A stretch of DNA of 33,456 nt from a virus. Location of the stretch: the IMG/VR virus record IMGVR_UViG_3300024429_000081, positions 1 through 33,456 of that record; one strand, 5' to 3'. The notes beneath the pieces are model-generated. The model ran no database searches. It saw only the letters and a program-made list of their open reading frames with translations, and was not told the DNA's origin. Position 1 is the stretch's first letter. Every line of letters begins with the position of its first letter. Positions 18 to 14,418 of this stretch are shown here, piece after piece. A program made the translations under genes and the position numbers.

Positions 18-245
18 TTATCCTCCTTTACCCCTTAGTCGCTTCTTCTCGTTAGCGTGTTCATATGTTACGGGTATATCCTGCCCATTTAATCTCTTGT
101 GTAGTAACAAGGCAAGTTCAGTGATCACCTCAATAGCATTTGGGATGTATATTTGTAGCCCATAGAAATGAAACACGCTCATTACACCATTTAGTTGTCG
201 CTTGAACCCCTTGACGGCTTTCGTCTTTTCGTCTTCAGTCATCAT
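18..245 (-). CDS. small conserved-type phage protein, 75 aa, unknown function
   Basis: The protein is soluble and mostly helical, with a basic C-terminus (residues 67-75 are rich in K, R and G). Its ATG overlaps the stop of the NinG-like gene, so the two are probably translationally coupled; a second in-frame ATG follows directly and the true start could be either. The central stretch with NGVMSVFHFYGL looks like a motif I associate with small phage proteins next to recombination genes, but I cannot assign a role. Function unknown. Confidence 0.75.
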   Translation of the reverse strand: MMTEDEKTKAVKGFKRQLNGVMSVFHFYGLQIYIPNAIEVITELALLLHKRLNGQDIPVTYEHANEKKRLRGKGG

Positions 246-666
246 CTTCTACAAAAATCCATCCACCGTTGTCATCTTCCAAGAATCTAATCTTGTCTTG
301 AAGGTCAGCCTTTATCTTGTCCCTATCAGGTTTACCACCAGGCTTAGCCATTTCCCTTAGCTCATTGTACCTTTTACTACCAAGTATTCCCATAAAGAAC
401 TCGTGCTTTTCTTCGTGGTTCAAATCAAGATGCCTATGGCAACCACAACAAAGCGGGGCGGAGTTATCATATTCCCACCTAGTCGCCAGTATATTTCTAT
501 TAAAACAATGAGCCCAATGCAGAGTACGCCAATCTACCTTCACGCCCTTGCCCCTCAACCAACACCTCTTGCAGTATCCACCGGACATAAGCCTTACATA
601 TTTACTACACAGTGTATCGTGTGGCTCAAACCTACTCTTCTTCCTTTTAATCAGTGTTCTCTTCAA
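235..666 (-). CDS. NinG-like HNH recombination nuclease
   Basis: 143 residues. A zinc-ribbon pair C32-x2-C35 and a C73/C74-x-C76-H77 cluster frame an HNH-type core: H50/H53 (LHWAHCFNR), N68 (RWEYDNSAPLC) and H77 (GCHRHL). This arrangement matches the NinG/Rap family of phage Holliday-junction or flap nucleases and related HNH proteins. The start is a TTG at 666-664, supported by GGAGGAG seven bases upstream; no ATG in frame fits. It overlaps the end of the preceding 124-residue gene by 20 bases and is followed by the 75-residue gene. Its place just after the replicative ATPase fits a role in phage recombination or replication. Family assignment is fairly safe; the exact substrate is not shown by sequence. 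Confidence 0.8.
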   Translation of the reverse strand: MKRTLIKRKKSRFEPHDTLCSKYVRLMSGGYCKRCWLRGKGVKVDWRTLHWAHCFNRNILATRWEYDNSAPLCCGCHRHLDLNHEEKHEFFMGILGSKRYNELREMAKPGGKPDRDKIKADLQDKIRFLEDDNGGWIFVEDDD

Positions 667-1023: not shown

Positions 1024-1890
1024 TTAATCATTTGCCTCCTGTATATTGAGAAATTTGGCACCGCCGACTAACTGGAATGTCCAACTCTTACCACGTGGGT
1101 TGACAGTCTCCTGTGCCCAATTCTTACCCACCTTAATAGTGAGTTTGTTTATATCCATTGTAAGATAAAGCCTTGCCTTTTCTAGGCTACGCCCACCACC
1201 AAGCCCCATATCGGCACCAGGGTTCTTCTGCAATGCTATAATGGCAATCCCACCAAGTTTATCCCAAATGTGGTAAATTAAACCACTGACCTCCCAGAAG
1301 TCTTTGTGTATTTCAAGGAAATCTATAATGTGAATATCATTTGGGTTTTTACTTACCGCATCCTGAAAGTCAAATGACTTCTCATAGGTATAGAATTTCC
1401 AACTGTCCATTTTGGCAAGACCAGTATCCTCAAACTTACGTAACCTTCTTTTTAATTCTAGCTCACCCATCTCGCTTGAGTAATAATGTATGGTGTATTT
1501 GTCCATATTCAGCCTTACAACATTGAGTAGGAAGGCGGTCTTGCCAGCATCCTTTGAGCCTGCCACAACAATAATATTCTTGGGGAGAATATCAACATAG
1601 TTCTCTAGCCCAAATGGCCACTTAATATCCCATATCAAACTCTCATCTGCCGCCCTCCAGTTAAGGGTAACAAGCCCATCAACTATAACCCGATAGCCAC
1701 CACCATACTTTTCAACCAGCCCCTCTTCCACCAATCGGCGGATAATATGCCAACGATTATTCTTATCAACCGTACTCCAAATCCCTAGTTCATTGTCCAA
1801 CGTGCTCAGGCCAAACTTGCGACCTGGATTCTCTGCTACCCAAAGCCGTATCTCCTGTGCTAGACTTCTGCCCTTATCCATTTTGTCCAT
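1024..1890 (-). CDS. winged-helix plus RecA-like (RepA/DnaB-type) ATPase, candidate replicative helicase or initiator
   Basis: 288 residues. Residues 10-75 look like a winged helix-turn-helix (RRLVEEGLVEKYGGGYRV has the recognition helix and wing). Residues 100-250 form a RecA-type core: Walker A GSKDAGKT (111-118), Walker B with D190 after a hydrophobic strand (IHIIDF), a sensor strand IIALQKNPG (217-225) and a Gly-rich segment GGGRSLEKAR. It resembles hexameric RepA/KaiC/DnaB-related phage ATPases, without the DnaB N-terminal domain. The likely role is replication helicase or loader; the DNA-binding N-terminus also allows an initiator or regulator. The start codon lies inside an array of 10-bp-phased TCCAT repeats and has no clear ribosome binding site, so binding there could control its expression. 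Confidence 0.8.
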   Translation of the reverse strand: MDKMDKGRSLAQEIRLWVAENPGRKFGLSTLDNELGIWSTVDKNNRWHIIRRLVEEGLVEKYGGGYRVIVDGLVTLNWRAADESLIWDIKWPFGLENYVDILPKNIIVVAGSKDAGKTAFLLNVVRLNMDKYTIHYYSSEMGELELKRRLRKFEDTGLAKMDSWKFYTYEKSFDFQDAVSKNPNDIHIIDFLEIHKDFWEVSGLIYHIWDKLGGIAIIALQKNPGADMGLGGGRSLEKARLYLTMDINKLTIKVGKNWAQETVNPRGKSWTFQLVGGAKFLNIQEAND

Positions 1891-1971
1891 CTATATCCAT
1901 CTGTGTCCATATTGTCCATTGAAATCCATTTTTGTCACACTTTGTCCATCTCGTGTCCATCATTTGTCCAT
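1877..1971. repeat. 10-bp-phased TCCAT direct-repeat (iteron-like) array
   Basis: TCCAT (usually TGTCCAT) starts at 1877, 1886, 1896, 1906, 1915, 1925, 1945, 1956 and 1967, with a degenerate unit (TCACA) at 1935. Steps are 9 to 11 bases, one helical turn. The array fills the 44-base gap between the 171-residue gene and the ATPase gene and extends into both. Direct, same-face repeats next to a replication ATPase resemble iterons or a cooperative operator. Confidence 0.85.
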
Positions 1972-2450
1972 ATACTTTCCTTCTTTTTACCCTTATCAAG
2001 GTGTTTAATTAGCTTTGATTGCCAGTATAAGAACTCTGACTTAAGCCGAAGGAATTGCCCAACACCAACCGCATTCGTGATTACGGGCATATTGATTCTT
2101 TTTGGCATCGGGATTTCAACTAGCTTCACTGGTATTTTTTGCCTTTCAATTATAGGCATAACCATGCGAACAAAGTCCTCTATTTTCTCAAGGTGAAGGT
2201 TGAGCCCACGAATCTTCATATCAAGATATGGTGTATAATATTCCCCCTTCCCCCCATACCCCCTATCCCCCATATTCTTATCAGTAATAGATATGTTATT
2301 GCTATCAGGTAACTCCTCTTCCCTAGAACCCCAAGGCGGTTGCATCTCTGCTTGTAGTTCCTCCATCATCAAGGACATCCTGTATTCAGGAGACTCCCTG
2401 ACAAGTTTATAGTGTTCGTGTGTTCCCTTATCAGCTAAGTTTTCACTCAT
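1935..2450 (-). CDS. hypothetical protein upstream of the replication ATPase, 171 aa
   Basis: No family recognised. The N-terminus is charged (SENLADKGTHEHYKLVRESP), the centre (residues 40-75) is rich in Gly, Asp and Tyr, and the C-terminal half is helical and basic (HLDKGKKKE near the end). The gene carries a four-run G-quadruplex motif on its coding strand, and its last codons contain part of the phased TCCAT array. The ATG overlaps the stop of the preceding Cys-rich gene (ATGA). A replication accessory role is suggested only by position. Confidence 0.75.
   Translation of the reverse strand: MSENLADKGTHEHYKLVRESPEYRMSLMMEELQAEMQPPWGSREEELPDSNNISITDKNMGDRGYGGKGEYYTPYLDMKIRGLNLHLEKIEDFVRMVMPIIERQKIPVKLVEIPMPKRINMPVITNAVGVGQFLRLKSEFLYWQSKLIKHLDKGKKKESIWTNDGHEMDKV
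2243..2271 (-). other. G-quadruplex motif on the coding strand
   Basis: The plus strand shows C runs at 2243-2247, 2250-2255, 2259-2263 and 2267-2271, so the minus strand has four G runs of 5, 6, 5 and 5 separated by 2- or 3-base loops. This satisfies the canonical intramolecular G-quadruplex rule with room to spare. It encodes a Gly-rich segment (DRGYGGKGE) of the 171-residue protein and lies about 270 bases from the TCCAT array. Confidence 0.85.
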
Positions 2451-11429: not shown

Positions 11430-12478
11430 TATGTTCCCCTAGTATCATGGACAGCTACCTTATCATATAACTCAACCCTTGGGTCGTGGAAGATTACCAG
11501 CCGCCCGCCGTGTGCTTCCATTTTAGCCCTGTCAAGTATAGCCTCAGCTACAAAGTTTGCGTCTGTTCCTGTCCTTATATCACCAGCTTGTTCAAATCGG
11601 TAACAATGATATCCATACTTATCTTTTTCAGTTTCATCAAATGCGTGCCCCGTGAGAGGCGGGTCGCCAAAATTCCCATCTTCGTCCTTATCACAGTAGA
11701 CGTGGACGTGGTTAGGAATGACTAACTGTGTCTTATAAGCCCATTCCTCAAACCAGGGAGCTTGGTAAGAATAGTATGTCTCATTAACAGAATCAGAAGA
11801 TTGGGGATAAACAGTCCTGAAATACGGGTCTATCAACCCCAGCCCAGGTTCGGTCTGGAGATAGCACTTTGTCCTTATGATTAACCTGTAAATAACCTGC
11901 TGGTATGTTTCGTATGGTTGTTCGTTTATCTTGAATGTGGGTGTGAACGAGTTAATAAAACCGTCATCGTTTCCTGAAGTTAAAGCCGCAAGCCCAAACC
12001 CTGCATCAGCGAGCACAACACCTATGATTGAATGTATCGTGCTTGTCTCCGTATAGGTGGCTTGATGGAACGGGCCTTCATCCCCTACATTACAATCCCT
12101 TTCCTTTAGGTTCTTCCACATCCCCTCAAGCTCAAGAGCTCTCATCTTCACCCCAGGCATAGAGATGTCAAATATATTCTTGACCCACATTGTAGGGTAA
12201 GTACCACCCTCAGTTGCACTTCCACCTTCCCCAGAGGCATCATAGCCCAATATAGGCTCAATCCAGTAGCCCTTTATATCAGCTACACCGAGGTCGTTGT
12301 TTCTTAAAAGAATAGTGCCGTATTCATTATATGCTTCATAGTGAAATTCTATCCCCAGCCTACGGGTTGAATAGTCAACTGTCGTATTCCCATCTGCTGA
12401 GGTAAATTCCAGTTTAACATACGGGGTGCGGGCATTACCCTTCATTGCAGCTAAGAGTTCATCTGAGATTACTCTCAT
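11429..12478 (-). CDS. baseplate-hub-like tail protein, 349 aa
   Basis: The protein begins MRVISDELLAAMKGNARTPY and VKLEFTSADG, typical of hub proteins that open with a beta-strand domain. A middle segment PYETYQQVIYRLIIRTKCYL is the helix seen in gp27/gpD-type hubs. The end (LVIFHDPRVELYDKVAVHDT) matches the closing beta domain of the same group. Its ATG overlaps the stop of the 646-residue gene. In a phage with no visible tube or tape measure this is probably the central tail-tip component. Assignment rests on overall pattern. Confidence 0.65.
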   Translation of the reverse strand: MRVISDELLAAMKGNARTPYVKLEFTSADGNTTVDYSTRRLGIEFHYEAYNEYGTILLRNNDLGVADIKGYWIEPILGYDASGEGGSATEGGTYPTMWVKNIFDISMPGVKMRALELEGMWKNLKERDCNVGDEGPFHQATYTETSTIHSIIGVVLADAGFGLAALTSGNDDGFINSFTPTFKINEQPYETYQQVIYRLIIRTKCYLQTEPGLGLIDPYFRTVYPQSSDSVNETYYSYQAPWFEEWAYKTQLVIPNHVHVYCDKDEDGNFGDPPLTGHAFDETEKDKYGYHCYRFEQAGDIRTGTDANFVAEAILDRAKMEAHGGRLVIFHDPRVELYDKVAVHDTRGT

Positions 12479-14418
12479 TATTCCCTCGGATAAGAATATG
12501 ATTTCTGTCTGGGTTTGCGCATCCTTCTAAGCTCCATCAGGGTATCCCTAAGTTTAAGCTGTGCCCACCTGTTTACAGCAGTTATAGAGTAGGAGGCTCT
12601 TATTGCTGTATTTGCCTGTTGGAGGTAGTTAGATGCTAGCCGTGCATACCCCGTAACACCACTTAACTCAGCACTAATGGCACGTCCCCAACTAGCTACG
12701 TTCTGTGCGTCAGCCCGAATGTAAGCATCGGCTACCCGTATATATCCCTGCGCTGATGTGATATGAGACCTTACAGCAACAGCATTCTCACCTACAATGG
12801 TACTCTCTAATGCGATGTAGCCCTGTGCCTCCCTGATTTGTGCCATTGCAAGCTGAACCTCTTGTGCAGCGAGGTCTCCATAATGCTTATCAGGTGTCTG
12901 AAGTGCCCTCGCTTCATCAAGTTTAGCCCTTGCTATTGAAAGTTGAGCCATAGCCTTGCTTATATATAGTTGTTCTACATTCTTGCCTGTAGTTATGGTA
13001 TTGATTACACCATCAAAATCAGTAGTCAGGTCTATAACGGCAACGCCAATCTGGTCAGATACGGCATCTAGGGCATCGTCAATCAAAGTATCCTCGGTGG
13101 CTATTGCGGTTTTTATTACACCTATTTGTGTAATCGCAAAGTCAAGTTGGTCAAAAGCATTCCCTAAAGATACGTGTGCCGTATCCCCCGGGGAGGCCGA
13201 TGTATAGTCTCCTATTGCACTATCAATCAAAGCAGCAGCAGCGGCAGCACTGCCCACCTTGTTGGAAGCATTTGAAATGGCTGTCTTGGCAGTCGCAAGG
13301 GAGGCAGGGATAACACTCTTCATTAGTCCTACATCAGTAACAAGTTGCCCTACAACAGCAGACATATTGCCACAGACTGAGCTTGCTGACCCGTAACCTG
13401 AAATCGCAGTATCAATAGCTGTCCTTGCATCTCCAACCCAGTTGAATGCACTCCTAGCAGCGACTAACTCCATCAAGAGCCGTTCTTCGTTTTGATTAAG
13501 GGAAGAACCAAGGAAAGTAACTCTCGTATTCTCGGCAGCCCTTTCTTTAAGGCGTGGTTCTATTATCAAATCACCCTCACCGCCTGAAAGTGTTGAGGCT
13601 TCTGTAGTTCTGTAGATACCCAGAGTACCCGTTATTGAAAAGAGCATATCCTTCGGTACGGTAGTAACGCCTACCAGTGCATCAACGTGAATCCTGTAAA
13701 CATCTTGTGCGTAACCACTTGCAGAGCCAGAGTCTATAGCACCATAGAAATCAGTCATGGTAGCTTCTACGTAGTGATTCTTCTTACACCATAGGTTGAC
13801 ATACTCATACCAGTATCTCGTGGAGTCAGCAGTATCCGCCCCAGTGTCGGCAGTGGCACAGTTTATTGATATGACTAGATTAGTGTCGTCAGTTATTTTG
13901 GCTACCCTATACCAATTAGTACCCGAAGCTGTTGAGATGTAGTAACCAACTTCAAGCTCTGAGGTAAACGCAGTTCCGCTTCCAGTTACAGCATTAGAAC
14001 CCGAAGTCAAGGTTACAGTCCCAGTTAATTCCTGAGCATCGCCAGCCGAATCATTCTGTTGACCAGGGGTAGGGCGGGAGGTTATATCAAGATACAGCTT
14101 CCCCCCATATCTCTTGAAATCTCTGAATGTGGGTGGAAAGTTACCAACAGGGTATTCAACCTTCAGGTCAATCAGGTTCTCTATATCGGATATGTCTATC
14201 TCCCTACCCTTGTTCCCTGTGAGTTGTTCGCCAAGTCTATGGGAACTCTCCATTAGTTTGGTCTGCATAATCTCCCAAGGGGAGTATTCAGAAAGTTCTT
14301 TAAGGGAGTCCTGTAGTTGGGCAGCTATATCGGTGGCAGAAAATATGGTATTAGCAGTTCCGTCTTCTAATATACGTTCTGCTCCATCTACTAAATTCGC
14401 ACTTGTTTTTGGTGCCAT
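12478..14418 (-). CDS. large tail protein with a C-terminal helical region, 646 aa
   Basis: Residues 1-120 are mixed. Residues about 128-165 contain the LTGTVTLTSGSNAVTGSGTA motif, a beta-strand repeat common in phage tail proteins, followed by more beta structure to about residue 300. From about residue 310 to the end the chain is almost all helical and Ala-rich, with regular heptad-like spacing (MAQLSIARAKLDEARALQ, IREAQGYIALESTI), suggesting a long coiled coil or rod. The C-terminus is basic. A tail stalk or appendage connector is likely; it is not a clear tape measure because it follows the fibre-like genes. Confidence 0.7.
   Translation of the reverse strand: MAPKTSANLVDGAERILEDGTANTIFSATDIAAQLQDSLKELSEYSPWEIMQTKLMESSHRLGEQLTGNKGREIDISDIENLIDLKVEYPVGNFPPTFRDFKRYGGKLYLDITSRPTPGQQNDSAGDAQELTGTVTLTSGSNAVTGSGTAFTSELEVGYYISTASGTNWYRVAKITDDTNLVISINCATADTGADTADSTRYWYEYVNLWCKKNHYVEATMTDFYGAIDSGSASGYAQDVYRIHVDALVGVTTVPKDMLFSITGTLGIYRTTEASTLSGGEGDLIIEPRLKERAAENTRVTFLGSSLNQNEERLLMELVAARSAFNWVGDARTAIDTAISGYGSASSVCGNMSAVVGQLVTDVGLMKSVIPASLATAKTAISNASNKVGSAAAAAALIDSAIGDYTSASPGDTAHVSLGNAFDQLDFAITQIGVIKTAIATEDTLIDDALDAVSDQIGVAVIDLTTDFDGVINTITTGKNVEQLYISKAMAQLSIARAKLDEARALQTPDKHYGDLAAQEVQLAMAQIREAQGYIALESTIVGENAVAVRSHITSAQGYIRVADAYIRADAQNVASWGRAISAELSGVTGYARLASNYLQQANTAIRASYSITAVNRWAQLKLRDTLMELRRMRKPRQKSYSYPRE

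Follow-up and report, generated by a model that had tools for sequence, protein, structure and literature searches.

Helically phased iteron arrays and the winged helix that probably reads them in a family of viral helicase-like ATPases

Introduction

The iterons of bacteriophage lambda are about two turns of DNA apart. They form part of the origin and are located mid-gene, within the initiator gene O (PMC7466680). In SCCmec, the AAGTG iterons of Cch2 lie inside a 23-bp repeat region, and helicases of this kind have been proposed to be self-loading (PMC7581432). For the plasmid pRN1, the authors of its description noted that an iteron structure is lacking (PMC4234260).

Here we analyse an array of short repeats, one helical turn apart, at the start of a gene for a winged-helix (wH) plus RecA-fold ATPase. 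The window, by which we mean the whole stretch of DNA analysed, comprises 33,456 nucleotides (positions 1 to 33,456 of IMG/VR virus record IMGVR_UViG_3300024429_000081). The array in the window belongs to an address code that extends across a family of viruses, with a different word in each. Changes in the word go along with changes at two amino acids of the recognition helix, a strong indication that the helicase uses this word to label and find its own origin of replication. A search of the open-access literature on iterons with Prim-Pol, wH helicases and methanogen viruses, which took in few subscription papers, gave no description of a wH-ATPase iteron system.

Results

On the plus strand of the window, TCCAT occurs at 1877, 1886, 1896, 1906, 1915, 1925, 1945, 1956 and 1967. 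A degenerate unit (1935..1939, minus strand), in which GTGTGACA replaces ATGGACA, keeps the phase; with this unit counted, the steps are 9, 10, 10, 9, 10, 10, 10, 11 and 11 bp, in a single orientation. The iteron array (1877..1971, minus strand) is made up of ten units ATGGA(C/T)(A) at 9-11 bp steps, with the coding-strand consensus ATGGACA and an A-rich spacer before each unit. It runs from the initial codons of the gene for the 288-aa ATPase across a 44-bp gap and covers the last 12 codons and stop of an upstream 171-aa ORF (1935..2450, minus strand), in the 3′ end of which lie three intact units and the degenerate one. The unit contains ATG, and the start of the ATPase gene (1890 or 1881) falls within an iteron. 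The sequence-only reading had given nine TCCAT units and one degenerate unit, in one orientation and at these steps, covering the gap, the end of one gene and the first ATPase codons; the positions agree with it exactly.

The word itself is not enriched in the window, as TCCAT occurs 97 times against 97.5 expected. The longest chain of a single 5-mer at 9-11 bp steps is nevertheless that of TCCAT, with 6 members, all other 5-mers remaining below 4. In 200 first-order Markov shuffles the TCCAT chain reached a maximum of 3, so that the observed chain was unmatched. The window array contains 9 in-phase pairs, whereas no control stretch of this locus had more than 1.

We modelled the 288-aa protein (1024..1890, minus strand) with AlphaFold2, using an alignment of relatives as input, and obtained a wH domain followed by a RecA-fold ATPase (pLDDT 91). 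The wH comprises residues 9-68 (1687..1866, minus strand), with helices at 10-20, 28-35 and 40-56 and strands at 59-62 and 65-68, the strand pair forming a two-strand wing. The recognition helix is that of residues 40-56 (1723..1773, minus strand) and includes N44 (1759-1761) and W47 (1750-1752), the two positions at which family members vary in step with their iteron word. The ATPase domain begins at residue 85 (1024..1638, minus strand) and carries a Walker A motif, GSKDAGKTA, and a Walker B motif, HIIDFLEI. A PDB sequence search gave no match; the fold of the model matched RadA (a bacterial helicase), DnaB, Twinkle and KaiC. The DnaB_C profile scored 20.9 bits on the window protein, below the Pfam cut-off of 27, and exceeded the cut-off in three relatives (L005, L012 and L039). 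These weak DnaB_C and DnaB-like helicase profiles, together with the model and the relatives, point to a probable origin-binding replicative helicase.

In relatives, the same wH-ATPase module follows a Prim-Pol, a DnaB N-domain or a DnaG-type zinc finger (CHC2). The protein is one of a family of viral ATPases of DnaB/RadA fold whose wH precedes the RecA domain, and because of these fusions it is probably the replicative helicase; as its own DnaB_C score is below the cut-off, its helicase activity would be inferred from its relatives. The window ATPase is a standalone short version that starts just ahead of the wH, and no Prim-Pol match was found elsewhere in the genome of this virus. No relatives of the ATPase were found in the plasmid collection. 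In L037 (IMGVR_UViG_3300031999_000057) and L038 (3300036760_000876), the ORF ahead of Walker A reads ...GLYIAKDFIVTHN/TAFLLN, and the P-loop of these helicases looks like it carries an inserted intein. Two genes downstream of the window ATPase, the protein encoded at 235-666 (minus strand) matches the profile of the NinG/Rap junction endonuclease (3.7e-07), which would fit a block of replication/recombination genes.

The window represents most of a circular tailed-virus genome. The same virus, circularly permuted, is present as IMGVR_UViG_3300009528_000023 (42,569 bp), which contains the entire window and about 9 kb more; since both ends of this record repeat 162 bp of the window (11473-11634), the genome is circular and about 42.4 kb long. 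ATPase relatives were present in just 2 of 50,697 phage records, Methanosarcina virus MetMV and Caudoviricetes sp. vir555 (from Methanomicrobiales), and the best match of the window terminase is to a Methanosarcinales virus. These matches make a methanogen the likely, though not proven, host. Further ATPase relatives occur in bacterial metagenome bins. Over window positions 11473-14142, two assemblies of the virus (the window and L134) differ by 28 substitutions in 2670 bp, while other compared stretches of the two are 100% identical; this stretch, which holds virion or tail-like genes, may reflect strain variation. Outside the window, a small ORF beside the packaging genes of the same virus (L131, 9252-9506) encodes KGITSGITNGGITDKGVT, a short in-codon repeat.

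We then looked at the surroundings of the wH in 87 non-identical wH-ATPase relatives, collected by two viral-contig scans and one genome scan and de-duplicated by exact identity over about 195 residues only. Arrays were scored by identical 6-mers at in-phase distances near the wH, with a threshold of at least 3 pairs. This threshold was reached by 48 of the 87 relatives, in contrast to 38 of 1531 control stretches (2.5%) from the same loci. The arrays lie within about 0.4 kb of the wH and usually inside codons. The lag spectrum, which is unbiased, peaks at 10 (266 versus 12.8 in controls), 20-21, 30-31, 41 and 51; the best array period is 10.2 bp, a value obtained on sites preselected for phase, so that the lag spectrum is the actual test. 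The sequence-only reading had proposed a search of related contigs for the same spacing with variable sequence, and this is indeed the pattern found, with the array at the same place in the gene and a different word in each virus. Both genes that flank the window array occur together in one relative, a 100% identical assembly of the same virus.

In the commonest layout, six sites are located within the wH codons, about +38, +48, +59, +69, +79 and +89 from the wH start, and four further sites about -224, -214, -204 and -194, in the upstream stretch that separates Prim-Pol from the following domain. In the window, the copies inside the wH are missing from this layout, and there is a single block directly ahead of the wH codons, similar to L006, L072 and L129. 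Words learned from wH-coding DNA alone gave 41 exact 7-mer matches in the upstream cluster (permutation mean 4.2, maximum 21; 10,000 permutations). By the in-phase score, a local array is absent in 39 of the 87 relatives. In 7 of these (L046, L077, L027, L127, L024, L114 and L122) there is an array nearby, just upstream of the ORF or, in two relatives, across its stop codon; that of L027 has codon-multiple steps and is weaker evidence.

Arrays of the same spacing are found at the equivalent region of MetMV and vir555, inside a long ORF, with the words GACCACA and GTTGAA, respectively. Six of the seven GACCACA copies in the unduplicated 59.1-kb MetMV genome fall in the array region. Neither a repeat nor an origin is annotated in the MetMV and vir555 regions examined. 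The MetMV record MK170447.1 repeats its first 8.7 kb at 59130-67826 and lists the genes there twice, the unique length being 59,129 bp. Two related virus contigs carry dense TAGCGT arrays (14-17 copies per 300 bp; L009 bases 1-300, L019 about 940-1060) about 3-4 kb upstream of the helicase, which are unrelated to the iterons. In a Methanosarcinales virus (vir525, BK063673; L007 20763-21782) a reverse transcriptase gene is annotated near tail genes, possibly as part of a diversity-generating retroelement.

The iteron words differ from virus to virus, with a variable 5′ part, and mostly end in CA(A). They include TGTCTACA, TGTCCACA, TGTCGTCA, GTCAACA, TGACCACA and TGACGACA, as well as GTTACA, GTAACA, CCTTACA, GGGGACA, TGTGACA and ATGGACA. 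We compared words and proteins at 44 loci over 273 protein columns, with the effect of RecA-domain distance removed; the words were hand-aligned on the 3′ CA, and four loci without a clear anchor were excluded. The columns that best predicted the word were recognition-helix positions +9 (r=0.54) and +6 (r=0.52), whereas no RecA-domain column exceeded 0.21, in a set of IMG/VR contigs that may share ancestry beyond what the distance regression removes. In the window protein, +9 is W47 and +6 is N44; the two positions are separated by one turn of the helix and share a face. Permutation matched the association of the recognition-helix block with the word in 0 of 5000 trials. The other parts of the wH gave r=0.12 (wing) and r=0.06 (H1), and iteron distance was not related to RecA distance (r=-0.02). 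In addition, the mean word distance to the nearest neighbour was 0.18 when neighbours were chosen by recognition helix, 0.29 by wH background and 0.36 by RecA domain.

As many of the repeats lie in wH codons, a coding artefact was considered as the cause of the co-variation. It was rejected for +6 and +9, whose codons are overlapped by no good iteron copy in nearly all loci. It was not rejected for helix offset 0, which scores highly, or for the upstream S/T positions; repeat copies encode these positions, and they were left out of the evidence. The co-variation holds after regressing out the wH background, after removing possible overlaps (four doubtful loci) and after removing close relatives.

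The residue at +9 goes with the type of word. Serine accompanies GTC/GAC-type words and arginine mostly GTNACA; CTTACA is found with histidine or tyrosine, and GACCACA with valine or asparagine. TGGACA is common to the window (+9 W) and L049 (+9 Y). Individual pairs follow the same pattern. L021 and L026 are 91% identical in the RecA domain and have different helices (KKNVSIIL versus KKAVVMAL) and different iterons (TGTCTACA versus TGACCACA). L012 and L035 are 40% identical in the RecA domain, with different N-terminal domains, and have identical helix and iteron.

Discussion

The sequence-only reading had offered two possibilities, origin iterons or a cooperative operator, with the winged helix itself as the binding domain, and the co-variation of word and recognition helix supports such binding. 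As the word co-varies with the recognition helix, we strongly infer that the wH of the ATPase reads the array specifically and binds it. That the array is a replication origin is likely, and this step, like the loading of the helicase by binding, is less firm than the binding itself. Taken as a whole, the array most probably represents origin iterons that are bound by the wH of the ATPase, which would bring the helicase together and load it there. Each unit would be a site for one wH, with successive sites spaced by a helical turn and facing the same side of the DNA, and several ATPase copies could bind side by side along the phased array through their wHs. The bound copies would gather helicase subunits as a ring or half-ring at the array, and the gathered helicase would be loaded there, leading to the start of replication. 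The single-turn spacing would leave room for one subunit per turn on one face; that the common six-site block would suit a hexamer is speculation. An origin is the most likely function because the wH belongs to a helicase-like protein linked to primases, and because the sites in relatives are in the gene and not at a promoter.

GC skew, which had been proposed as a check for an origin, does not mark the array. No skew turn was found at the array in the completed window genome, vir555 or MetMV, where skew follows gene orientation. Likewise, there was no AT peak across 42 loci that would indicate a consistent AT-rich unwinding element beside the arrays; mild AT-rich stretches lie close to the arrays of vir555 and MetMV. 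Skew and base composition thus neither support nor exclude an origin.

The wH protein might instead bind the array as a cooperative operator, only to control its own transcription, with replication starting elsewhere. Specific wH binding, to which the co-variation points, would fit such an operator equally well, the window array spans the gene start, and in L046, L020 and L077 the array is just upstream of the ORF. However, the sites of most relatives lie in the wH codons (+38 to +98) and at about -224 to -194, inside one long ORF and 500 bp or more from the gene start, with no promoter overlap, and in two relatives the array crosses the stop codon. That the wH is joined to helicase and primase domains also favours replication. 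An operator is therefore an unlikely explanation, and we prefer an origin because the array of most relatives is deep in one long reading frame, with no gene start there.

Still less probable is that another host or viral factor binds the array, the co-variation being indirect and caused by recombination that exchanges iteron and wH segment together. Iterons and recognition helix are within about 100 bp of each other in many relatives, and hence would travel together. Yet the co-variation centres on two positions separated by a single helix turn and is not wH-wide, as the low values for wing and H1 indicate, and it remains once the wH background is regressed out. The co-variation set also includes arrays outside the wH codons (the window, L049, L129, L036 and L039).

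A repeat that acts at the level of protein or translation, either as a low-complexity linker peptide or as alternative ATG starts, has very little probability, even though each window unit contains ATG and vir555 encodes SVESVESVETVENVEN ahead of its wH. Steps of 10 and 11 bp put the copies in all three frames (107/94/119 across the family), which indicates that selection acts on DNA; words without ATG occur in relatives, and the lag spectrum tracks 10.2 bp and not multiples of 3, so that such a repeat is ruled out as the principal cause. Chance or a decaying simple repeat, to which the commonness of TCCAT in the window might point, is refuted to the point of being negligible by the shuffles, which never approach the phased chain, and by the dozens of relatives that have phased arrays of other words in this position.

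Returning to origin iterons read by the ATPase, the findings can be taken further, tentatively and with slightly less than even confidence. A family of viral DnaB-type helicases may load themselves at the origin, with six or more wHs on one-turn iterons, and may have acquired many private addresses through joint change of two recognition-helix residues and of an array that is mostly in wH codons. Reader and address would then travel as one cassette, giving origin incompatibility between viruses.

The arrays predict where replication would start in a large group of uncultured viruses, including methanogen viruses, for which we found no described origin. They also suggest that a RecA/DnaB-fold replicative helicase can reach its origin with neither an initiator nor a loader as a distinct protein. 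The recognition helices and their words, naturally paired in dozens of cases, provide a data set for the wH DNA-recognition code and for building orthogonal replicons.

Among named proteins, the closest relatives are MetMV AZF89917 and vir555 DBA35047 (44% and 34% identity), with phased arrays at the equivalent place. Unlike the window protein, both are fused to Prim-Pol; they are annotated as a hypothetical protein and a DNA primase, respectively.

Among described systems, lambda O and ori-lambda are similar in that direct-repeat initiator sites lie in or beside the gene of their reader, and specificity and site travel together. Iterons within the initiator's own coding sequence are found in most relatives, the overlap in the window being limited to the first codons. 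Lambda has 4-6 longer iterons, whereas the units here are 6-8 bp and one turn apart. Lambda O is not an ATPase and recruits the host DnaB through P; in the present family the domain that reads the sites is part of a helicase-like RecA-fold ATPase and not of a separate initiator that brings in a host helicase through a loader.

SaPI Rep and Cch2 are helicases with their own dsDNA-binding domain, which reads several very short iterons (PMC7581432), and the architecture and co-variation reported here would fit such an arrangement. In those systems a primase is fused or nearby, and self-loading, perhaps as hexamers, has been proposed (PMC7581432). The single-turn spacing, described as unusual in the sequence-only reading, is so in comparison with plasmid iterons, but SCCmec Cch2 provides a precedent for short iterons bound by a helicase that is proposed to be self-loading (PMC7581432). 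Cch2 and Rep are D5-type helicases that bind DNA through a domain at the C-terminus, and the origin follows closely after the gene (PMC7581432). In contrast, the proteins here have a RecA/DnaB-type motor with the wH in front, and the iterons are mostly in the gene, where they often fall within the sequence that encodes the reading domain. The motor is not of the D5 (SF3/AAA+) type, as the fold best matches RadA, KaiC, Twinkle and DnaB.

ORF904 of pRN1, from the Sulfolobus plasmids, resembles the family in having an archaeal Prim-Pol fused to a helicase, with a wH in the same protein (PMC4234260). It differs in that the wH is C-terminal and the proposed origin is a stem-loop downstream of the gene (PMC4234260). 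By this comparison, the wH-ATPase system would combine features of lambda O and of Cch2/SaPI Rep with a different motor and domain order, and with sites in the codons of the reader. It appears to belong to none of lambda O, Cch2/SaPI Rep and pRN1, and to be a system in which reader and site diversify together.
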